Assembly (NCBI GenBank): GCA_934045905.1
Contig: OW203771.1
Coordinates: 19,352,069-19,416,068, forward strand
DNA: 64,000 bases
Reading direction: 5' to 3'
Source: Leuctra nigra
Lineage: Eukaryota > Arthropoda > Insecta > Plecoptera > Leuctridae
In this document: piece after piece, positions 2,689 through 58,630 of the stretch
Numbering within the stretch: the first letter of the stretch is position 1
Layout of the letters: each line of letters begins with the position of its first letter
Translations under genes and position numbers: made by a program
The notes under the pieces: model-generated
Databases searched by the model: none
Told to the model about the DNA's origin: nothing
Seen by the model: the letters and a program-made list of their open reading frames with translations, nothing else

Positions 2689-2907
2689 CCGGGTGGCGCA
2701 AAAAAAATACCCCTGAATGAGAGGTACCTATATCGAAACTATTATAGATATGATTCTGAAATTTGTACATACATTAGAAAACATACCAAAATTTAATATG
2801 AAAGTTTCAGACATATTTATTCATTAGGAAAAAAGTTACAAACATTGAATTGAAAATTAAAATTGAATTAATGATTGAAGTTACAGTTGAAGAAACATAT
2901 TTAACCA

Positions 2908-3222
2908 GGAGGCCAAGTCTTGAAACTTACGCCTTCAGGACGCAAACGCTCTAGGACGTCAACAAGTCCCATTTACTGTAAGAATGATCGCCATTGAAAC
3001 ATTAATTTAAGCCACTTATTTGATTGGCATCCAGCCATATTGCAAACAATTTATTAACATTATAATTATAATTACAGATGTTATTCAGTCATTAAAACTT
3101 TATTCAAAATGAAGCTAACCAGTAAACAGTAGATTTCAAGGTCGTCATTCTTATACAGTAATGGGACTTGTTGACGTCCTAGAGCGTTTGCGTCCTGAAG
3201 GCGTAAGTTTCAAGACTTGGCC
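2908..3222. mobile_element. Palindromic MITE nested in the mariner-like element
   Basis: About 85 bp starting GGAGGCCAAGTCTTGAAACT recurs in inverted form at about 3131-3222, ending AGTTTCAAGACTTGGCC. A miniature of the same family lies at 52204-52302. Confidence 0.8.
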
Positions 3223-10580: not shown

Positions 10581-10772
10581 ATACTCCCAGTTAGAACATA
10601 ATTCATTGAACTCTTTTACGTCGTCAATGTGTGGTGTAATAATTGTATTAGTATCTCTAATAGATAATATCTCCATTAGAGGACAACTAGAGAATTAGTG
10701 AAAGAAAGTGATCATAACACTGTCCTAATAACATAAAGTATCAAGAAAAGAACAGATCCCAAATCTAAAAAC

Positions 10773-13700
10773 ATGCCATTCGTTATCACCAATCGGCTCC
10801 TCTACATCGCTGGTTTGTCATACCACGGCATTGACAAGCCGAGTGTCACGCTAGCGTACAACTGGAAGACTCGTCTGTACTTCTGCTACACCATCTGCAT
10901 AACTGTCATCTCCTTGGTCCTCCCAGCATCCCGCTTACTAGCTGCAAGCATGACGTGGACGGACTTTCCCAAAGTTACAAGTAATGTGATTTTATTCCTC
11001 GGATTCATTGACAAACCATTTATGATTTGGCTCATTTTAGTCAAACGTGCAAAACTACATCGACTAATTGAACAGCTAACTGCCATTTCATCACTTAACT
11101 GTGACAAACAAGAAGGAACACGCGAAGTGCACGCAATCGTCAATAATAGAACATTCATCAAGTTTGCTTTCTTAATGTTCTCCATATTACTAATTGCAAT
11201 AACTGTGATCAGTTATTTTTTCTTACCGGAAGTTTTTCCAAAAGAGATAAACCAAGGCAACGAATTATACCAAACTTTAACCAAATCGGATACCTTCAAA
11301 TATGTATATAGGAATATCACGATCGTTTTCGAGACTTTTGGGTTCTGTGTGCAAGTTGTTCTTGCTTTCAGTGTTTACACCTTGTTGTTTACAATAGTCT
11401 CACAATTGTGTAGAAATATTGAGATGCTGAGCGAAACTCTTTCCGAAATTGGCAGAGAAGAAGAACCCCGAGAGACGAAGAATATGAACCAAGAGAAAGT
11501 AGTCTTGCAACAGGACCAAAGAGAAACTGAAGATGAAATATCAACTATTCGTATAACTGTCAGTGATTATAGCACTATTGAGGATGAATCTGAGGTCCTC
11601 GAAGAGATTCTATTCACATATCCAGACGGAACTCAAGTGATATCACTGGAAGGAGATGACGTTCCACTTGATAAGAAGAAGAAAGAAGGATTGGATTTAC
11701 CACGAGGGGATGACGACTCTGCACCGAAACCCAACTCAGATGAACTGCGACAAAGAGATGTGTATCCAACAATTGACGGGAATTGCATAGAAGAGCAGCA
11801 AAATGTGGAAATACATTTGAGGGATTGTAGCAAAAAGCACCATCAAATTTTAAGGCAAATATTATATTATTAAATTAAAAGCTAGAGTTACCTATTGTAC
11901 AGGTATTAAGGTGGGGCAAGCGCGAGCGATTTTGCCGCTTGTTGCGGGCACTTTTTTTTGGATACGATTGGAGACAAAATGGGTTGACGAAATGACTTGA
12001 AATTTTAACCATGATTAGATAAAAGACAAACTTACAGTTATCCCTTGGTAAATTTTTAATTTTATGCTTCGTTAATTAGTTATAATAAGTTGATTTTTGG
12101 TGAAAAATGGTCTAGTTTCTCGTCTCAATGGGTGCTGTATGAAATTTAATTTTAAAAAGGAATAATGATTAAAATTTAAAATCATTTGGTTAACGGGTTT
12201 GGTCTCCAATCGTATCGGAAATTTCATAGTTTTGAGCGTTTTTTTTATGAAAAGGTGCAAAATGAAAATATACAATCAGACTCATAAGAACATTCTATCA
12301 AAGTTACACTCACTTATGAAACAATTTTTATCTCTCAATTTTCTAAAACGGCCGAGCGCTAGTATCACCTTTGACATTATAAACATCTTTCAATGATGAT
12401 ATGTTTGGGTAATGTGTAAAACTTTACAGCCCTCGTTCAACTAAGGACATTTTCACATCACAAATCCCTTCTCACGACAATTGTTTTATTTCAGTTTCGT
12501 CCAAGGTCTCAATGACGTTTGGGCACCATTTTTGTCCATTATATGTAGCCTATCAACTCTGGTTCTTGGCATGGCGGCTATGAGATTGGCACTGGTAAGT
12601 ATTAGCTTGCGCAAAAAAATTATGTACAACTTTCACATCTGTTGGTCTAAATACTTTTCAAAACAAATTAGAGACAACAATATTGTTCTACACGTTTAAT
12701 TTATTTTTCGTCACATTTACAGTGGAGTTAGCCGACTCGAAGGTAAACAATGGAGGGAAACAACCATAACTTTTGAACCATTTAAATTAAGAAAAAAGTA
12801 AAATATATTTAACATACTTGATTTTAGTGGACGGACCAGCAATAAACACAAACATATAAATTCAATATTTGTTCTGATAAATAAGCTGACAAAAACAAAA
12901 TATAAAAATAAGAGCTAGACACGAGTTTGGGCATAAATATTGTATTTACTAGTAAAACGCTCCGTGTAACGCGTTGATGAGCGAGCACCGTCACGCGCGA
13001 CATCGCCAATCGAGCACGATCCATTCAATCAAAATATAACTAAATACATTTTTACCAATTTACCTTGCAACTTTCCATAAACACTCTGGATCAATTAAAT
13101 AACAGATTAATGTACTAATTCTTTTCCATCAATCTCTTTGGACATATATTCAAAACACTTAAAATAGCAATAAGTAATTTGATGCTATCTAGCCGAAACG
13201 TTGTTTTTATAACTGTGAACCACGATACATATCCCAAAATAAATTATTTTAGATAGTTACCTATACATATTATGTATAATAATTAGTGATGGCACCATTA
13301 CAAATTTTCAATGACCATTGAAAAAATTTAAAATTTTTGAAAAAGTTTAAATCAATTTTATTTTATTTAATAAATGTATGGGCATACTTGGGATGCATAC
13401 TGAACTCTATTATGATGCGTGTTGTTGTCTGAGTGGTAAATGTGCAAAATGATCATTAATACAGCATCCAAATTTCCCGCCTATGTAGAAATTACAGTCT
13501 GGCCAAAATTACAATGAAGAAAAACTGAGATTTGGGCTTATATTTGACTTTTATTTTTATTTTGATTTTACGCTTTTTTTCTGATATATTATCAACAATT
13601 GTGTGCAATAAAGCAATAAAAATAGTAATTTAAAAAATTTTCAACGCATTGAAAATTTTCAAAAAAAATTTTTTTCAGAAAATTGCCATCACTAATAATC

Positions 13701-19870: not shown

Positions 19871-21111
19871 ACTTGACGAATTATATTTTATAATCATTGG
19901 ACAGAATATCACTGTCTCTTCTTAACACCGTGAAAGTACTTTGAAATCGGCTTTGCATCTCTTATAACAATATTGCCGTTACAGCAGATATCTGGAGACA
20001 GTAATAACAAAATCTTCATAGAATATAGGCTATCAAGGGTGAAGGTAGCAATACTCGATATGACATTCGCCATCACCAATCGGCTCCTCTACATCGCTGG
20101 TTTGTCATACCACGGCATTGACAAGCCGAGTGTCAACACGCTAGGGTACAACTGGAAGACTCGTCTGTACTTCTGCTTTACCATCTGCATAACTGTCATC
20201 TCCTTGGTCCTCCCAGCATCTCGCCTACTAGCTGCAAGCATGACGTGGACGGACTTTCCCAAAGTTACCAGTAACGTGATATTGTTCATCGGTTTTATTG
20301 ACAAACCATTCATGATTTTGCTAATTTTGTTTAAACGAGTAAAACTGTATCAGCTGATTGAACAATTAAATGCTATTTCATATCGTATTAGTAACACATA
20401 TGACTCAACAGGCAACATGCATGTAGGTAATAATCGAGCATACTTAAAATTGGGTTTAAAAATGTTTGCAACATTTCTAGTAGGTATAGCTCTGATTACT
20501 TATTTTTTTCTACCAAACTTTTTCCCAAATGAAATAAAGCAAGGAAACGAAATATACCAAACTTTAATGCAATCGAAAACATTCAAATATCATTACGGGA
20601 ATATAACTTTCGCTTTCGAGACTTTTGGTCTCTGTGTACACGTCGTTATTGCCATCAGCGTTTACACCTTACTGCTTACAATAGTCTCACAATTGTGTAG
20701 AAATATCGAGATGCTGAGCGAAACTCTAGCCGAAATTGGTCGAGAAGAAAAACCCCGAGAGAAGAAAAGAATTAACCAAGAGAACGTAGTTTTGAGACAG
20801 GAACAAAGAAATTACGATGAAATATCAGCTATTCGTATAACTGGCACTTTTGAGGTTGACGCTAAGGTCCACGAAGAGATTATAATCACGTATGCAGACG
20901 GAACTAAAGTGATATCATTGGAAGGGGATGAAATTCCCATTGGTAAGAAGAAGAAAGAAGATGATGGTCTTCAGACAGCTGAAGGATTGGATTTACTGCA
21001 AGAAGATGACTATTCTGTACCGAAACCCAACACAGAAGAACAGCAAAATGTGTACATGCTATTGAGAGAATGCAGCATTCTGCATCATCTGATTTTAAGG
21101 TAGATCTTTGA

Positions 21112-27950: not shown

Positions 27951-28135
27951 TTTTACTGAATAATATATTTGATTCCATGTTCCGATAGAATTAATTACTC
28001 TCCGTTACACTGTCTAGGTAACAAGTTGTAATTGTTCTGGCAACTAATATAAATATCTCCACTACAACGGACCAAGCCAGTTTAAAAGTAAATACATAAT
28101 TTCTTTAATAGTCTACATAAAATATCGATAAAGAA

Positions 28136-31100
28136 ATGGATCACAATTCAAAAAACAATTTCAAAGTCGTTGGCATCAATCGGCTCCTCTTCATTGCTGG
28201 TTTGTCGTACCACGGCATTGACAAGCCGGGTGTCCAGCTGGCGTACAACTGGAAGACACGGCTGTACTTCTGCTACACCATCTGCATAACTGTCATCTCC
28301 TTGGTCCTCCCAGTATCCCGCTTACTAGCTGCAAGCATGACGTGGACGGACTTTCCCAAAGTTACCAGTAATGTGGTCATGTTTCTTTGTTTTATCGATA
28401 AACCATTCTTGATCTGGCTCGTTGTGGTCAAGAGAGAAAAACTGTACCAACTGATTCAAAAGTTAAACACTATTTCATCTCATGCCAGCAACAGAATGCA
28501 AACAAAAAAGCTAGTAAGTAACCGAGCATATGCCAAATTTCTGGCCTTACTTTTTGCTATGTTTGTGCAAAATGTAACTCTAGTCGGGTTTTTCGTGACA
28601 CAATTTTTTTCAATCGAAAAAAATCACGAAAATAAATTATTCCCCTCACTGATTATATCAGAAGCATTTGAAATTATTAACGAAAAAAATACTTTGATAT
28701 TTGAGAGCATTGGCTTCTTTGTAGAAGTTATTATTTCAGTCAGTGTGTATCCTATACTGTTTAAGATAGTCGTACACCTATGTACCATTATCAAGCAGCT
28801 GAACGAATCTCTCGTTGAAATCGGTAGCGAATGCGGGGAAACCCCCGAGAAGAACATTACGCAGAAGAATTGCGAATTGAAACAGCAGCAAGAAGAACTT
28901 GTGGGTAACATATCAACTATTCGTATAACTGTCACTGACTACAGTGACCTGGATGTAGAGGCCGGTGCTGAAGAGATTGTAATCTCTAATCCAGTCAACG
29001 AAGCAAGTCTCAATAATCCAGTAGTTCGTGAAGCTAAGGTAGTCACTTATCCGGACGGAACCCAGATAATAACTCTGGATGATGACGATGAATCTCAGGT
29101 TGATATTGTTAAGAAGAAGTCATCATCCGATGAAGCCATGGAGTTGTTGGACAATATGGCAAGTAACGACAAGGAAACAAGTGATCGAGTGCACATTCTT
29201 TTGAGGGACTGGGCCATAAAGCATTGTCTGATTTACAGGTAAATAAATTATTAATATATTACATAAAATATTCGTTAAGAGGCAAATGGAAGCGAACGGG
29301 AATCGCACCGTTCGTCAGAGCGATTTTTTGAAATATTGTCTTCCCACTAAATAATTTAAAAAAATCAATAGTAATGACCCATTACAGCCTAATAGACTAA
29401 ATAATGCCACACACTGGAGTTCATTATGACCTCTGGTACGACCTCAAAGTGTTAAATACGATATTTTTTGTAATTTTTAGTAAAATAATCGTATTTAACA
29501 CTTTGAGATCGCACCAGAGGTAATAAAGTACTCCAGTGTGTGGCATTATTTAGTCTATTAGGCTGTAATGAGTCGTTAGTCGTTACTATCTGATTTCTTA
29601 AAATTATTTAGTGGGAAGACAAAATTTAAAAAAAAACACTCTGACGAACCGTGCAATTCCCGTTCGCTTCCTTCTGCCTCTTAAGCGGAACTAATTAGTA
29701 ATTATTCTATTTTCCTTCCAGTTATGTCAATGATCTCAATGACTTTTGGGAGACATGTTTGAAATATTTGTTACAAGTGACATCTCTATTTCTGAGCATT
29801 TCAGCTCTAAAACTTGCGGTGGTAAGTAGAACACAATATATGTTGGCAATCTTGTCACCTATATAATTAAACAATACTAGTAAAACTAAAAAAAAGTATG
29901 TGTGTGGGTATAGTAAGAGTGGTATTTAATGAAAAACTAATGATAAAGCTGTATAATATATGCTGGGAAACCAAAGACTAAAGAGTGGTATATATTTGAA
30001 GCTCACTATACTAAATAACGTCAACCACTGGAGTAGTTAAGTTACGACCTCAAAGTGTCGTCAAAGTTCATTAAATAATAAATAATTATCTTAAAATAAT
30101 CGTATTTATGTACTACTTAATAATTCGCACAACCAAGATCAGTTCTGCACTCTAGTGGTAGAGATGTGGTACTAGAGGAAAGGGTTCAACATTCAATTAT
30201 CCATAAGGAACCTGTAGAGTTTGGATACCTCTACATCATACACTATTAAACATAGAACCATAAAAATTGTAAGTAGTATAGAAAAGATTATGCTTATTCG
30301 ATCTGTCACCTCAGAAATGCATTTATTGTGTCTAAATAATTATAAAATAACTTTCCGTATGAAGCTAATACGGCTTATACTGTAGCCTGATTGGTCTGTT
30401 GAACCATTTCCTGTACTCTGATTGGCTGCTGCATTTCATGTTTGCATGATTATTACGCTGCAATTTAACCTCGGAGAAAAATTCTGAGGTGACAGATCGA
30501 TAAAGCATAATCTTTTCTATACTCGTTACTTTTTTCAGGGTTCTATGTTTAATAGTGTATGAAGTAGAGGTATCCAAACTCTACAGGTTCCTTATGGAGA
30601 ATTGAATGTTGAACCCTTTCCTCTAGTACCACATCTCCACCACTAGAGTGCAGAGCTGATCTTGATTGTGCGAATTACGAGAAGTCAAATGTACTCCAGG
30701 CTGTAGTTATTTAGTGTATTGAGATATAATTGTTGTTTGCCCTACTCATTGATTTTTTATTCATCTGTTTATGTGAAGACAAATTCAAGAAAACACTTTG
30801 GTGTATCTACCTACCTCAAGCCTCCCGTAATAATACCCATGCCTCGTATTAACCAATCTAGTGTAAATATAGAATAATAATCACAAAAGTCAAGTGAGGT
30901 TTGGGCATTATTATTTGATTTGTAGGTACCTACAACAAAATCGGAAGTCGGTAAAGAATAGAGATTATTTCAAAAATGTCTTTATTTACGAGTTCTTAAT
31001 TTTATATTTTATAAGTGATGAACATTTCATAGGTAATTTTGGAAATTACTTTACAGATACAGAATTTGGAAGACCCGGAATTAGTCAAGTACCTGTGGAC

Positions 31101-52203: not shown

Positions 52204-52302
52204 GGAGGCCAAGTCTTGAAACTTACGCCTTCAGGACGCAAACGCTCTAGGACGTCTAGGACGTCTAGGACGTCTAGGCGTAAGTTTCAAGACTTGGCCT
52301 CC
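52204..52302. mobile_element. 99-bp miniature palindrome of the 2908-3222 MITE family
   Basis: GGAGGCCAAGTCTTGAAACT (then TACGCC) is mirrored perfectly by AGTTTCAAGACTTGGCCTCC. The centre is a 9-bp tandem repeat, CTAGGACGT, about four times (52246-52277). Confidence 0.85.
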
Positions 52303-52412
52303 TGGGCTTGACACTGGACTCCTGTCACTCCAGCAAGTTTTACTAGGTTCTTTCATAATTAAGTTGTAAATTCTGAGGTGTACTACATTGTAAGTACCTA
52401 CTTCTTACTAAA

Positions 52413-55109
52413 ATGTATTCTAATGTAGAATTAGATAACACACAGCAGAGTACGAATGACTGTTTAGAATCTCGTGTGACGGAAAGTGAAAGTGGGGTTA
52501 AACACGCCGATCACAATGAAGCTAAGACCAATGAAGAACCAGTAGTAGAAATAGTTGGTAACAAGCCACAACTAAACACCATAGACCCTAGGAATGGGAA
52601 TGGTAGAGGTGCTGTTAGGAGGACACTGAAGAGTACTGCAGAACAGATCAATACTGATGCAATAGGCGCACCTACAGTAGTTTCCAAGGATGTAGATACA
52701 AATTCCGCTCAGTCTACATATTGCCTTGTTTGTAAAACAGAAGTCAATGAATCCGATAAAGCAGTAGGCTGTGATGGTTATTGTAACAAGTGGGCTCACT
52801 CAATCTGCATTAACATCACAGACAAACAGTATGCCGTGCTGAGCTCTATAAGAGAATCGCAGTGGTGGTGTAAACCATGTAGTGTTCTCCATCGTGATAA
52901 GAAAACAGAAACTGGCGCCTCAGGTATGTGGATGAGTTCTTTATCAAAGTTTGAAGGAATCCTCCAAAATAACAGTCAGGAACAAGAGCGTACAAAGAGC
53001 ACCCTCCAAGCCCTAGCCATGGAAGTAAGGGACCTACGTAACGCTCTGGTTCACTTCACCGCTACCACCAGTGATATCAAAGTAACATCACATACTCCTA
53101 AAGATACTGCAACACCACATACATCACAAGTAACATCACATACTCCTTAAGATACTGCAACACCCCCTTCCCATAAGAACATAGCATCACCAACCCCGAA
53201 AATCATCAATGCAATAAAGCAGTCAGACCCTAAGCGTAAACTGAATTTGGAGGAAATAGCTGGAAATCTTTTCGATTCAGATGAGGATTACGCTCTGGCC
53301 CACTGTGTATCGGCGGATTTTAAGATGTCGGAGGGTATTGCTGCGGTAATTAAAACCAAATATGGAGGCACTGATGCCCTGCGGACACAACGGAAGACTG
53401 TGGGGGAGGTAGCAGTGCAAGTGGTTGAGAATAGGACGATCCTCCATATGATCACCAAACCACGATACTATCAGAAACCATATCTCTTCGACTTTGTTAA
53501 CGCAATAAAAAACCTGAGAAAGACGTGCGTGAAGAAATCCATCAGAAAACTGGCCATACCATTAATAGGATGTGGGCTTGACAGAATGGGCTGGCCGCTG
53601 GTGAAAAGCACAATCGAAGAGGTTTTTGCAGACGAGGACATAAACATACAAGTCTACAGCATGGAAGCCGGACTGGGTCTGCAGACAAGCAGGAGCACCA
53701 ACTGGACAGCAGGGAAGAACAGGAAGACAAATACATCGACCAGACCCCTCGCTACACAGTCTTCACAGCCGCAGCCAATGCCCTTGCTGCAGCCAGTCCC
53801 AGTCCCTACCCATCAGTCACTCCTGCGTAGGATACTTGAGCAGTCGATGCCGTTACCACAACCCTCGATTCATGCTGCGCAGCTACAATCAGAGATGCAG
53901 GTTCCACCAACACGTCCCCCTGGTGAGGACAGGGAGCAGGGACAGGAGCAGCTGCAGAACGTCCCAGTGGGGGAAGTCACCAACATCCCGACAGCCAGAT
54001 CCTCTCAAGTAGGCAACTCCTTAGCAAGCAACACCGAAGTTGAGCAGCGGCAGCCGACAACATCACCCCTGCCCGAGCCCCTTCAGCATACAACACTGCC
54101 TTTACCACTGGAGCAACCACCAGGTTCACCGAAGCCCAAGTCAACGCAGCAGCAGACGACACTGAGAACGTCACCACTCTTCCAACCTCAGCATAGTGGA
54201 ACAGCGCAGTTGATCAAGCCCGGGAGAAAGAAGCGGTCAACTCAAAAGGGACCCCGCCCTGGTGAAGCCCCTATACAAACAAGGACCTTCATACCATCTA
54301 GGAACATCATCCCTCAGCCACAAGCAATTCCTCAGCTGACAAGTGCGGCAAGACAAATGTGGCCCACGCTGGTAAAAAATCACCACCACCAACAAGAGGA
54401 CCTTCTCACCTCACTAACGCCCCCCTGGGGCCCCAGGATGCCGATTATTCAGCAGGCGCAAACCAGTCCTTCACAAGTACCACAGCTACACTCACAACAG
54501 CCAGTAGCATCCTCCAATACCAATCCATTCCTTCCGTATGGTCCCCCGGCCCCACCAGTACCAACTCCAAAGCCTATCCTCAACAGGAAACGTAGTATAA
54601 TTATCTCGGATGATACGATTTCCAACACACATAACTTTTACCAATGGAAAGAAGACGAAGCCTGGATCCTTCCCGGGATCCGTACCAGTGAAATCACGGC
54701 CCACTTGAATGGACTGGATCCCAGGCAGACGTATGACAATGTATTCCTACAGGTAGGAACACATGACCTACTGGCAGGAATAGATGAAGCCAACCTGGCC
54801 AATGATTACCGCAATCTTTTAAGGATGGTAGAAGACAAATTCAGAGGTGCCGTAATATGCACCAGTGGGCTTCCCCCTCGGGCTGACCTAGGTAGAGAAG
54901 CGTGTAATATTTCCAACTTCATAATCAGGGATGAGTCAGGAAGTAGGGGACATTCATTCCTCGACCCTGGCCTCTCTATGGAGGAAAAAATGTGGTGCCA
55001 GGACCGTTCTAAGTTAAACAAAGCAGGCGTTCACCACTGGCTGACTTGCTTCAAACAGCTTACCCACAGACCAAGTTCCCCGGGAAACTGGTGGAGGACG
55101 AGGGAATGA
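52413..55109 (+). CDS. LINE ORF1: PHD finger + OARD1/TARG1-like macrodomain + SGNH-like domain (one internal stop)
   Basis: The frame runs from ATG 52413 to TGA 55107-55109, 898 codons, broken once by TAA at 53148-53150. There a lysine codon (AAA) of a repeated SHTPKDTATP unit has become TAA. Domains: PHD finger at residues 103-156 with ligands C104, C107, C120, C124, H129, C132, C153 and C156; a short coiled segment; a macrodomain at about 279-415 (LAHCVSADFKMSEGIA, HMITKPRYYQKP, IPLIGCGLDRMGW), closest to OARD1/TARG1; a Pro/Gln-rich linker of about 300 residues; and an SGNH-like domain at about 720-880 (VFLQVGTHDLL, a late HHW). The residues matching the TARG1 lysine and aspartate are K349 and D390. 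The SGNH serine block reads IISDDTIS, so its usual GDS is absent. PHD plus esterase is known in CR1 ORF1; the macrodomain is the addition. ORF1 proteins normally bind RNA and assist integration. Confidence 0.82.
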
Positions 55110-58027
55110 AGGACATGGGGAACGTGCTATATGTTTGCCCTCCAGCATCGAAATCTGCATCTCACATACTGCGCATCCTGCTTGTCAACGCAAGAAGTCT
55201 TGTCCACAAAATCGACAAGCTTAGAACAATTGTCGAGGCATGCAGCCCCAATGTGTTTGTTGTAGTCGAAACATGGCTGTGTGCTGACATAAAAGACAGT
55301 GAGGTCAGTGTGCCGGGCTTTGCCGTCCACAGGAGGGACAGAGATCGACATGGGGGAGGTGTACTCATAGGCACATCATCCGACGAGGCTGGAAAGATAA
55401 TGTGGGCCGACGAGGAAATGGAGATTCTCTGTGTACGAGCCACCCGCCCCACAGGTGAAGTCACCGACATCATCGGGGTGTACAGAAGTGGGGAAGGTGC
55501 CACTGAATTCCTTCGACAGCTCGAGACGAAACTAAGTTGTTTTGGAGCGCGACACCGGAGCATCATTGCCGGAGACCTGAATCTCCCAAATGTGAAATGG
55601 ATCCCGGGAGTTACAACTGGCGCAGGCTCGGGCAAGCAAGAAATGGTGTCCAGGATCATGAACTTGGGATACGAACAAGCTGTCTCGGAGGGTACGAGAG
55701 CCATCACAGCCGACAGAAGCAACCTTCTAGACGTGGTCCTGGTGAAGCCCCACAACCTTATCTGTAGGAGTGAGGTCCTGGACCTGGAGCTCAGTGACCA
55801 TAGAGCAGTGGTAGTGGACATCCTAACGGCGAACAAACTCCAGAAGAGTACAGAGGAAGAAGCTACACTGTGGTGCTACAAGAAGGCTGACATAAGGGGT
55901 CTGAGGGAAGAGCTCTGGACGAGCTTTCAGACATGGGCCCTAGCTGACCACTCAAGCATTGATTCGATGTGGGAGTCTATGCTATGCATAGTGTCCGCAG
56001 CGATGAAGAAGCACATCCCGCAGAAGAGAGTGAAGGCGAACCAAGACCCTCCCTACTATAACACCAGTATTAAGAAGCTGAAGAGGAAAGCCAGGGTCCT
56101 TTTCAACGTAAGCAGACGAAACAGATCGCAGAGGGCAAAACTGTATTCGACCACAGCTGAGCTCAACAGGGCCAAGTCCAAGGCAAAGGATCTTTACATG
56201 AGGAGTATGTTCAGCAAGGAAGATGATGGAGGGGGCTGGGCCAGACTGTACAAGCACATCCGACAGCAGAAGGGAGGAGACCGAGTTATTCCCACGTTAA
56301 TTGGCACCGATGGAAATGAGATAGCTTCCAGCAAGGACAAGGCAAACGCTCTAAATTCATTTTACGCCAAGGTCTTTAACACGTCATCTTCAGCTCCATC
56401 TGCGACCCCAGCGCTGTGCTGTTCCAGAAGAGGATCGTTTCCGATGGCAGTGCATTCCACGGGAATCCTACACGTTATCAGGAAGCTAAAGAACGGTAAA
56501 GCGCCTGGAGGCGACGGACTAACGAACACACTGCTGAAAATCTGCGACCTGGACATTGCCATCTACCTGGAATACTTATTCAAGCGCATACTGAGAGACG
56601 GAAGGGTACCCCTTCTCTGGAAAGAGGCCATCGTAATTCCGGTCTTCAAGGGTGGCGAGAAATGTCGGCTCACCAACTATCGACCGATAAGCCTCACCTC
56701 AGCAGTCTGCAAAGTTTTTGAGAAACTCCTGGTGAGGTATATCTGGCAAGTGTTGAACGCTGAAGAGGTAATTACCAACATACAGCACGGTTTCAGGGCT
56801 GGGCACTCTTGCGAGACCCAACTGACAGGATTAGTCCAAGATCTATCCAACTCCCTTGAAGCTGATGAAGAGGTTGATGCCATTTTTCTTGATATGCGAA
56901 AGGCATTCGATAAGGTCGACCATGGAATACTCGTTGCCAAGCTTGCTGCGCTCATTGAGGACGAAGCGGTGGTGAGAACGGTGCAGGATTTCCTCACGGG
57001 ACGAACCCAAAGGGTCAAGATAGCTGACCAACTCTCAGAAAGTGCGAGCGTCACCTCGGGGGTTCCACAAGGCAGCGTAGTCGGGCCGCAACTCTTCCTG
57101 ATATATATCAACGACCTGACAAAGAACATAAAATCGAAAGGTCGGCTCTTTGCAGATGACTGCGTGGTCTACGCAAACATCAAAGGGGATGACAGTGTAA
57201 AGCAGCTGCAGGACGACTTGCATGTCATTCAACACTGGATGACAGCGAATAAAATGTGCCTAAACCTAGAAAAATGTGAAGTTGTTACCTTCTCCAGAAA
57301 GCGAGAAGTTAGAATAGTTCATTACGAGATAAGCAACCATACCCTTACATGCAGCGAGGGTTATAAATATCTGGGAGTATGGCTAGATAGAAAATTGGAG
57401 TGGAAAGAGCAAGTCGGTAGAGTCTCTGCGAAAGGAATCAAATGCACAAATTTCGTCATGAGGAACCTGCACGGAACATCATCTGAAACAAAGAACCAAG
57501 CCTACAAAACACTCATCAGGCCCTTGCTGGAATATGGAGGAGCGGTCTGGGATCCCCATAAGGAGGGTGAGAAGAGGGCGCTAGAAAAAACACAGAGAAT
57601 AGCAGCCAGGAGAGTGACCGGTAGGACAAGGAAATGGAGGACAGAAAGGAACTTGAAAGGTGAGATCTGCAAGGTGTGGGAGAGCCCCAGCGATATGATG
57701 GAGGAGCTTGGATGGGACTCGCTGGAGCTCAGAAGAACTGAATCTCGCCTGTGTAACCTGTACCGAGCAAGAGAGGGAGTACAGGGATGGCAGGAAATCA
57801 ACAGCCAGGTCATCCCGCGACGGTACGAGGGCAGAGCTGGTACAGGTGGCCTCCTACACGAGCCGGGAACGAAGAAAGACTGCGGTAAATATTCCTTCAT
57901 TCCCCGCACCGCTCGGGACTGGAACAAACTGGACTGCGGCCTGATTCCGAAAGGGCTGACCACCAAGGAATTCCGAGCCACCATACACAGAATGCTGGTC
58001 GGCCCTCCTGAAGAGACTGATGAATGA
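55106..58027 (+). CDS. LINE ORF2: endonuclease-reverse transcriptase
   Basis: The start ATG at 55106 overlaps the ORF1 stop as ATGA, which suggests coupled translation; an in-frame ATG at 55046 is also possible. 973 aa with no stop. N-terminal APE-type endonuclease: ILLVNARSLVHK, VVVETWL, GDLNLPNVKW, and SDHRAVVVD near residue 233. Reverse transcriptase: NGKAPGGDGL, PVFKGGEKCRLTNYRPISL, FLDMRKAFDKVDH, SGVPQGSVVGP, the catalytic LFADDCVVYA and YKYLGVWLD. The C-terminus is a basic region without RNase H. All catalytic motifs look intact, so this ORF may be active. It nicks target DNA and primes cDNA synthesis there. Confidence 0.93.
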   Translation: MKDMGNVLYVCPPASKSASHILRILLVNARSLVHKIDKLRTIVEACSPNVFVVVETWLCADIKDSEVSVPGFAVHRRDRDRHGGGVLIGTSSDEAGKIMWADEEMEILCVRATRPTGEVTDIIGVYRSGEGATEFLRQLETKLSCFGARHRSIIAGDLNLPNVKWIPGVTTGAGSGKQEMVSRIMNLGYEQAVSEGTRAITADRSNLLDVVLVKPHNLICRSEVLDLELSDHRAVVVDILTANKLQKSTEEEATLWCYKKADIRGLREELWTSFQTWALADHSSIDSMWESMLCIVSAAMKKHIPQKRVKANQDPPYYNTSIKKLKRKARVLFNVSRRNRSQRAKLYSTTAELNRAKSKAKDLYMRSMFSKEDDGGGWARLYKHIRQQKGGDRVIPTLIGTDGNEIASSKDKANALNSFYAKVFNTSSSAPSATPALCCSRRGSFPMAVHSTGILHVIRKLKNGKAPGGDGLTNTLLKICDLDIAIYLEYLFKRILRDGRVPLLWKEAIVIPVFKGGEKCRLTNYRPISLTSAVCKVFEKLLVRYIWQVLNAEEVITNIQHGFRAGHSCETQLTGLVQDLSNSLEADEEVDAIFLDMRKAFDKVDHGILVAKLAALIEDEAVVRTVQDFLTGRTQRVKIADQLSESASVTSGVPQGSVVGPQLFLIYINDLTKNIKSKGRLFADDCVVYANIKGDDSVKQLQDDLHVIQHWMTANKMCLNLEKCEVVTFSRKREVRIVHYEISNHTLTCSEGYKYLGVWLDRKLEWKEQVGRVSAKGIKCTNFVMRNLHGTSSETKNQAYKTLIRPLLEYGGAVWDPHKEGEKRALEKTQRIAARRVTGRTRKWRTERNLKGEICKVWESPSDMMEELGWDSLELRRTESRLCNLYRAREGVQGWQEINSQVIPRRYEGRAGTGGLLHEPGTKKDCGKYSFIPRTARDWNKLDCGLIPKGLTTKEFRATIHRMLVGPPEETDE

Positions 58028-58630
58028 ATGTAGAAAATCTGTGTATTAATCTGTGTATGAATGATGGTAAAATTATTGTAAATAGTTAAATTTAAATTTA
58101 TTGCGTACATAAGAAATGTTACTTGATGATATTGCTGATGATTGCTGAATTGATTTATTAATGCGATATTAATTTATATTATTATAATTTTTATTGACCT
58201 GACTATTGACTTGCTGAAATGACTTGTAGGTATTAAGGTATTATTATTATAACTATTATATTATTATTATAACTTATTAAGATGTATGTTCCTGTTCTTT
58301 GACTCTTGATTATGGAAAGTATTCATGAACTGAATTCTAGACTGTTGTATAGAGTGGCATATCCACATAGGTTTATTGTTGCTCTGTCAAATGTTTTACT
58401 GAATTATTTATACTTTTATTATTACTGTCATATTCTATTCTTGGATATGGAATTGTTAGTCATTAAGAAATTATCATTACCAAGAATTATTATTATGTCG
58501 ACTGTAATATAATTAACAAAGTGCCATTATGTAGTGCACATTAGCATGTAGTAGGATTCCTTACCACCGTGCATAAACAACTGTAAGATGCCTAATAAAA
58601 AATATCAAAAAAAAAATATCAAAATATCAA

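Follow-up and report, generated by a model that had tools for sequence, protein, structure and literature searches.

The 64,000-nucleotide stretch of the Leuctra nigra genome analyzed here (assembly GCA_934045905.1, contig OW203771.1, positions 19,352,069 to 19,416,068 of the forward strand, or C10:19352069-19416068 in our genome coordinates), hereafter the window, carries a 6.3-kb long interspersed nuclear element (LINE) whose first open reading frame (ORF1) encodes a TARG1/OARD1-type macrodomain behind a PHD finger. The element is of the CR1/L2/Jockey-group kind: its ORF2 combines an APE-type endonuclease with a reverse transcriptase (RT) and matches L1 ORF2p with an E-value of 2.1e-24, ORF1 contains the PHD finger, and long terminal repeats (LTRs) were not seen, as a self-comparison of the window found no end-to-end direct repeat. 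The 5′ limit is common to copies L161, L162, L163 and L165 elsewhere in the genome, and copies L191, L192 and L194-L197 match the 3′ end as far as 58602-58630. The features, in window coordinates, are as follows.

52302 to 58610 (3′ end approximate), + strand: whole LINE copy, 6.3 kb; ends from comparison of copies
52413 to 55109, + strand: ORF1, ordered PHD finger, macrodomain, Pro/Gln-rich linker, SGNH-like part; one in-frame stop in this copy
52722 to 52880, + strand: PHD finger, C4HC3 ligands seen by eye; PF00628, E 3.5e-07; Pygopus PHD chains, E 3.7e-09
53148 to 53150, + strand: in-frame TAA at ORF1 codon 246, within a short tandem repeat (second unit)
53247 to 53666, + strand: TARG1/OARD1-type macrodomain, from Pfam, phmmer against the PDB, AlphaFold and Foldseek; Lys codon 53457-53459, Asp codon 53580-53582
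53667 to 54569, + strand: Pro/Gln-rich linker, from the translation
54681 to 54965, + strand: weak SGNH/GDSL-like stretch; PF13472 (Lipase_GDSL_2), E 0.0012, under the cut-off
55013 to 58027, + strand: ORF2 open frame, beginning before ORF1 ends; PF14529, PF00078 and L1 ORF2p
about 55466 to 55810, + strand: ORF2 endonuclease; PF14529, E 1.6e-09
about 56669 to 57382, + strand: ORF2 RT; PF00078, E 6e-33
58028 to 58596, + strand: AT-rich 3′ untranslated region, from comparison of copies
about 58597 to 58630, + strand: short, variable, (AAAATATC)n-like 3′ tail, from the tail repeat

The macrodomain and its place in ORF1

Segment 53247-53666 translates on the + strand into 140 residues without a stop. 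Searched against PDB sequences with phmmer, it matched human TARG1/OARD1 with an E-value of 9.8e-30 and without gaps across residues 4-138. The Pfam Macro profile scored the isolated piece at 23.2 bits (E 7.2e-05), above the cut-off of 22, and at 20.1 bits, slightly below that cut-off, within its 652-codon open frame. An AlphaFold model of the segment had a pLDDT of 93.5, and in a Foldseek search with this model the top eight hits were TARG1 chains (best TM-score 0.93, 1.5 Å; 41% identity in the structural alignment), with DarG ninth. The catalytic lysine of the ITK block and the acidic residue of the GCGLD block are both present; as K71 and D112 of the piece, equivalent to K349 and D390 when numbering starts from the ATG at 52413, they align gap-free to the TARG1 chain. 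The TARG1 pair is given as Lys84 and "Glu125" in PMC7050489 (this and the other papers cited by PMC number are represented here by parts of their text), and the solved TARG1 chain has an Asp in that block. The sequence-only reading of this locus, which had proposed a TARG1-like macrodomain after a PHD finger in a LINE ORF1 and had suggested a profile search, is thus borne out, and we regard it as confirmed from sequence and modeled fold that the segment is a full TARG1/OARD1-type macrodomain with both catalytic positions kept; hydrolase activity is predicted.

The residue numbers K349 and D390 came from that same reading and are correct as a count, but the count runs across the TAA at codon 246. 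This TAA is private to the window copy among eight copies compared. Under ordinary translation the window copy therefore does not yield the PHD finger and the macrodomain in a single chain, and its earliest ATG past the TAA falls within the macrodomain. From 53151 to 55109 the ORF1 frame contains only its end stop, whereas the two remaining forward frames have 33 and 32 stops; a chance open frame is thereby excluded. A frameshift at the end of ORF1 was considered and ruled out, as the open copies share the same ORF1 ending.

The SGNH-like domain, also part of the earlier claim, fares less well in the window family than in some of its relatives. LINE ORF1 esterases of the ZfL2-1 type have a Ser-His-Asp triad with oxyanion Asn and Gly (PMC3905857); in the window family the triad is not recognizable by motif, as the Ser block, immediately upstream of 54681-54965, reads SDD in place of GDS and the third block reads GTHD. 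The best match of this part among PDB sequences was no better than E 0.65, a protein search with the region gave 0 of 244 candidates at E≤0.01, and its single-sequence model (pLDDT 44.7) was too poor for use. Among related families of this genome, the Pfam GDSL profile was above its cut-off in L248 and L243 and below it in five others.

Immediately 5′ of the LINE, an inverted-repeat stretch (52204-52302) shares its ends with another inverted repeat at 2905-3222 and resembles a small miniature inverted-repeat transposable element.

Copies, element families and catalytic residues

We searched the 536-Mb assembly with the window macrodomain and scored 150 of 376 candidates. All 150 scored candidates matched, so the genome holds at least 150 such domains; 144 of the 150 are free of stops and six contain one. 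The sequence-only reading had allowed for a chance capture by this single copy, and that possibility is ruled out by the number of matches; the domain belongs to the element family and extends, as described below, to 30 families. Eight of the scored matches, the window copy included, are close copies of the window LINE. Their macrodomain-holding open frame spans 910 codons in four copies and 855, 754 and 693 codons in three more; in the window copy 652 codons follow the stop. In all seven other copies the frame begins well upstream of the position of this TAA. Six of these seven are 99.8-99.97% identical to the window LINE over their matching parts, from which we conclude that the element moved recently, and the ORF2 of six copies differs from that of the window copy at 0-2 of 2925 bases. 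The seventh copy, L168, is 98.9-99.2% identical, with gaps.

A second search used a thrips (insect) domain as query (382 candidates, 150 scored) and, by a count of the two lists, added 43 places absent from the first. The matches were mostly near-complete domains within one open frame; no intron-split or unfused host OARD1 was recognized among the 150 scored, of which the short frames (184-261 codons) were not inspected. The comparison set comprised 71 macrodomain rows, namely the window, 30 loci of the first search and 40 further places, corresponding to 70 places as the window copy occurs twice (also as L166). These reduced to 49 distinct proteins and, at 80% identity, to 30 families. Many family domains score below the Pfam Macro cut-off, and their identification is by protein match to the window domain (E 5.6e-24 or better).

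Typed by their flanks, 22 of the families are LINEs, seven are Ty3/gypsy elements and one (L206/L256) is untyped. LINE assignments rest mostly on a downstream ORF2 or ORF2 start; L214/L258 was assigned solely through the likeness of its ORF1 to those of L244 and L245, and L222/L250 by reading its translation. The PHD finger was above the Pfam cut-off in the window family, at it in family B and under it in family C and L253. A SAP domain was above the cut-off in L247, L248 and L252, with a similar stretch in L257. In the first three the SAP domain forms the start of ORF1, and it is a partner not named in the consulted text of an ORF1 survey (PMC4120745). By identity, and without a tree, the ORF2 pieces form three sets: A/L247/L249/L252 (31-37% within the set), L248/L243/L244/L245 (28-44%) and L246/L251 (43%), with reported matches between sets at 20-29% and one of 35% over a stretch of 40 residues. 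In all seven Ty3/gypsy families the macrodomain follows the protease; RT comes after it in L241, L242, L254, L262, L263 and L266, and the read of L259 ended before RT. Long tandem repeats also occur in ORF1 or pol open frames, beside the macrodomain or replacing it, in L253, L200, L244, L245, L242 and L243.

Of the 30 families, 26 retain both catalytic residues (gypsy 7/7, LINE 18/22, untyped 1/1). K71 and D112 are 90% conserved across families gathered through protein similarity, independently of the GCGLD pattern; the mean over all columns is 53%. The ratio of nonsynonymous to synonymous substitution (dN/dS) was obtained for 12 row pairs with dS of 0.03-1.6. Nine pairs with dS of 0.03-0.23 gave 0.09-0.37, seven of the nine coming from one family and hence not being independent; the pair L233/L235 (dS 0.226) gave 0.09 though L233 carries a stop. 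Three pairs close to saturation gave 0.44-0.46. GC content by codon position, considered as a sign of long residence, was not discriminating.

Relatives beyond this genome and the origin of the domain

In the searches made, macrodomain-bearing LINEs were found in this genome only. Elsewhere, the TARG1-type domain is fused in other gypsy proteins, in one possible DIRS-type gag and in DNA ligase III. Lys and Asp are kept in 6/6 of the outside retroelement rows and in 5/5 of the human, two thrips and two ligase III rows. Human TARG1/OARD1, of the ALC1-like class, shares fold, length, GCGLD and ITK blocks and the catalytic Lys and Asp with the window domain; it differs in being a small free-standing enzyme, whereas here the domain forms part of a LINE ORF1 or a gypsy pol and is present in many genomic copies. 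Ty3/gypsy proteins from Littorina saxatilis and others (P0002, P0007, P0009, P0010, P0011) likewise carry a fused TARG1-type macrodomain, but place it before or after the integrase or after RNase H, not after the protease and before RT where reached. P0005, which is gag-like and contains a CCCH-type Cys/His stretch, is taken here to resemble a DIRS-type gag and has the domain at its C-terminal end. In P0006 and P0008 it precedes a LIG3-type BRCT domain; the ligase core and C-terminal domains come before it in P0008, and P0006 (395 residues) is without the ligase core. The thrips proteins P0003 and P0004 begin with the domain and continue into a long Ser/Arg/Lys-rich tail.

Among described elements, the CR1/L2/Jockey-group ORF1 proteins (types I-V, including PHD and esterase types) share the PHD finger, a GDSL-like stretch and the order of ORF1 followed by an ORF2 with APE-type endonuclease and RT, but the main text of the survey (PMC4120745, as consulted) names no macrodomain and has 0 words beginning with "macro"; here PHD finger, macrodomain and GDSL-like part stand in one ORF1. 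Bdelloid rotifer LTR elements with DEDDy and GDSL ORF3 (PMC5408684) also show accessory enzyme ORFs common to different retroelement types, but with other enzymes and "macro" 0 times in the main text as consulted. Fish endogenous retroviruses are stated to have taken up a macrodomain in a 2009 report cited in PMC4977317; they are retroviral and vertebrate, and known here from one review sentence that does not give the macrodomain class. That sentence is the sole precedent that we found for a macrodomain in a retroelement, and no report of one in a LINE or Ty3/gypsy element was found in the open-access literature, subscription papers and repeat databases lying outside the search.

To place the domain in trees, outgroup scans took the best 80 of 131 viral and the best 80 of 88 bacterial relatives, giving 142 distinct rows; the open frames that hold the domains of these collection relatives are no longer than 244 codons, save L157 (362). 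With the window and 17 further sequences they make up a set of 160 rows, in all of which Lys and Asp are present, the Asp of the 142 collection rows being kept by construction as these were picked with a pattern containing GCGLD. In the 160-row tree the window domain falls in an 18-row clade (support 95/95) of 16 named rows (human, thrips, ligase III and retroelement) plus L003 and L110, one from the viral collection and one bacterial; all other collection rows lie outside. A 28-row tree did not reject a single clade for LINE plus thrips rows (p 0.069), for all retroelement rows (p 0.123) or for the gypsy rows from other genomes (p 0.099). In a 49-row tree a branch (support 83/87; present in 82% of bootstrap trees) separates the 30 families of this genome from 19 other rows comprising human, thrips, ligase III, bacterial and viral sequences and the five gypsy proteins named above, and one clade was not rejected for the LINE rows (p 0.092) or the gypsy rows (p 0.374) of this genome. 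The simplest reading of these sequences would be one uptake in the host lineage, then exchange among elements.

Three earlier placements were given up. The metagenome protein P0013 appeared as sister of the LINE domain (86/88; 96/87), a position lost once the genome's own families entered the tree. The rejection of a single clade for LINE-borne domains (p 0.0005) had counted untyped rows as outsiders, and typed rows gave p 0.092 and 0.375; the corresponding rejection for PHD LINEs (p 0.006) was withdrawn for the same reason. No close relatives were found in viral contigs with ORF2, P0013 or the window domain as queries.

Elsewhere in the window, three related open frames (10737-11870, 19934-21100 and 28121-29239) match 7tm odorant receptors (PF02949), a family known from insects, and form a receptor cluster.

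Possible roles of a retroelement-borne macrodomain

We favor, at a probability of roughly one half, the reading that the retroelement-borne TARG1-type macrodomain is a cellular ADP-ribosyl hydrolase captured in the host lineage and serving as a general eraser that guards the element's nucleic acid and proteins. It starts from the fold, the residues, the fusion to ORF1 or pol, the many families, the recent copying of the window family and the retained frames, and proposes from these a capture, an enzymatic activity, a substrate and a benefit to the element. The sites from which TARG1 strips ADP-ribose are acidic residues and the phosphorylated ends of DNA and RNA, and the enzyme forms a lysine adduct (PMC7050489, PMC8053099, PMC6582358). 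By analogy, the domain captured from the cell would have become an accessory part of ORF1 in many LINEs and of the polyprotein in some Ty3/gypsy elements, riding in the RNA-protein particle of the element. There it would remove mono-ADP-ribose set by host PARP-type enzymes on element RNA or cDNA ends, on proteins or on nearby chromatin, the Lys attacking the ribose and the Asp releasing it in the manner of human TARG1. Where LINE families have changed these residues, the domain would serve as an ADP-ribose reader or tether. The distribution suggests that elements need to erase or to read a mark with which cells tag damaged or foreign nucleic acids.

Several results weigh against this general-eraser reading. 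Four of the 22 LINE families have lost or changed one or both catalytic residues (Asp lost in family C; Lys to Arg with Asp lost in family D; Lys to Arg with Asp to Glu in L232; Lys to Arg in L236), so that catalysis is not needed in every case. For 30 of 48 ORF2 matches a macrodomain match lies within 6 kb upstream on the same strand, and for the other 18 no scored match does; element truncation or unscored candidates may account for some of these, and the search scored 47 of 10,833 candidates and thus does not give the share of LINE families with the domain. L199 (ORF2 78% identical) has the linker and a GDSL-like stretch, with no match to PHD or macrodomain in the approximately 2 kb preceding that part of ORF1, and L200 (ORF2 52% identical) has PHD-like and GDSL-like parts, the latter 70% identical to family B, with a Gln-rich repeat in the macrodomain's place. 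A macrodomain match in a 394-codon frame (C4:2168495-2168899) lies on the same strand as the L200 ORF2 (C4:2170913-2173747) and some 2 kb downstream of it. The module seems to have been gained and lost among related elements. Finally, a search of 5.8 billion proteins returned 11 macrodomain proteins of fitting length, which included gypsy-type proteins and none recognized as a LINE ORF1.

The changed families speak for a reader or tether, in which binding of poly- or mono-ADP-ribose brings the particle to damaged or open chromatin and hydrolysis is secondary. All four keep the domain in frame with P105 and W116, which suggests that binding alone is sometimes enough and leaves viable the sequence-only reading's own alternative, ADP-ribose as a guide to damaged chromatin; the neighboring PHD and SAP domains are binding modules as well. 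The retention of both catalytic residues in most families, and in every gypsy family, argues the other way, and so does SCO6735, a protein of the same macrodomain class that lacks both residues (PMC7050489), so that loss of the pair is not proof of lost activity. We consider a reader or tether role of this kind unlikely, if credible. The role first proposed for this locus, that the ORF1 domain clears ADP-ribose from DNA ends or repair proteins at the nicked target and lets cDNA synthesis and joining proceed during target-primed reverse transcription, is weakened to a similarly unlikely standing. The PHD finger here and SAP in three other families could recruit ORF1 to chromatin or DNA, two sequences have a TARG1-type macrodomain fused to the nick-sealing DNA ligase III, and TARG1 does work on DNA-end ADP-ribose. 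Against such a role stand the seven families typed as Ty3/gypsy, elements that integrate through integrase. Human L1, moreover, is promoted by PARP1 and PARP2, its retrotransposition falling by about 50% on loss of either and by about 80% on loss of both (PMC8535693). As LINE and gypsy elements share the module, their common need is likelier an eraser acting on their own RNA, cDNA and proteins or on silencing marks than a step specific to target-primed reverse transcription.

An anti-silencing variant, in which mono-ADP-ribose is stripped from chromatin proteins that silence retroelements, has a mammalian model in SIRT6, which mono-ADP-ribosylates KAP1 so that L1 is packed into heterochromatin (PMC4695847); this evidence concerns L1 and SIRT6, not insect counterparts, and we rate the variant improbable. 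Lower still stands the already disfavored notion of a functionless passenger retained via the recent spread of a few founders. Relatives without the domain, the broken window copy and the six matches with a stop would fit it, but the 30 families are divergent, frames are largely retained, the active site is mostly conserved, dN/dS is below 1 in measurable pairs, and LINE and gypsy elements alike carry the domain.

Beyond the general-eraser reading, we put forward tentatively, and at less than even odds, that a TARG1-derived macrodomain has come to be widely shared among the retroelements of this host lineage, spanning at least three LINE ORF2 groups and Ty3/gypsy elements, because a putative host ADP-ribosylation defense makes each element need an eraser or decoy reader. 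Macrodomains serve some RNA viruses as counter-defense tools and act in cells as repair erasers. If the proposal is true, the module would be to transposons what macrodomains are to these viruses and would indicate a PARP-based defense against transposons. Its recently copied families and natural variants with and without the catalytic residues offer a testable system, and a repeated, largely conserved macrodomain module in many retroelement families would tie ADP-ribosylation to the retrotransposon life cycle.

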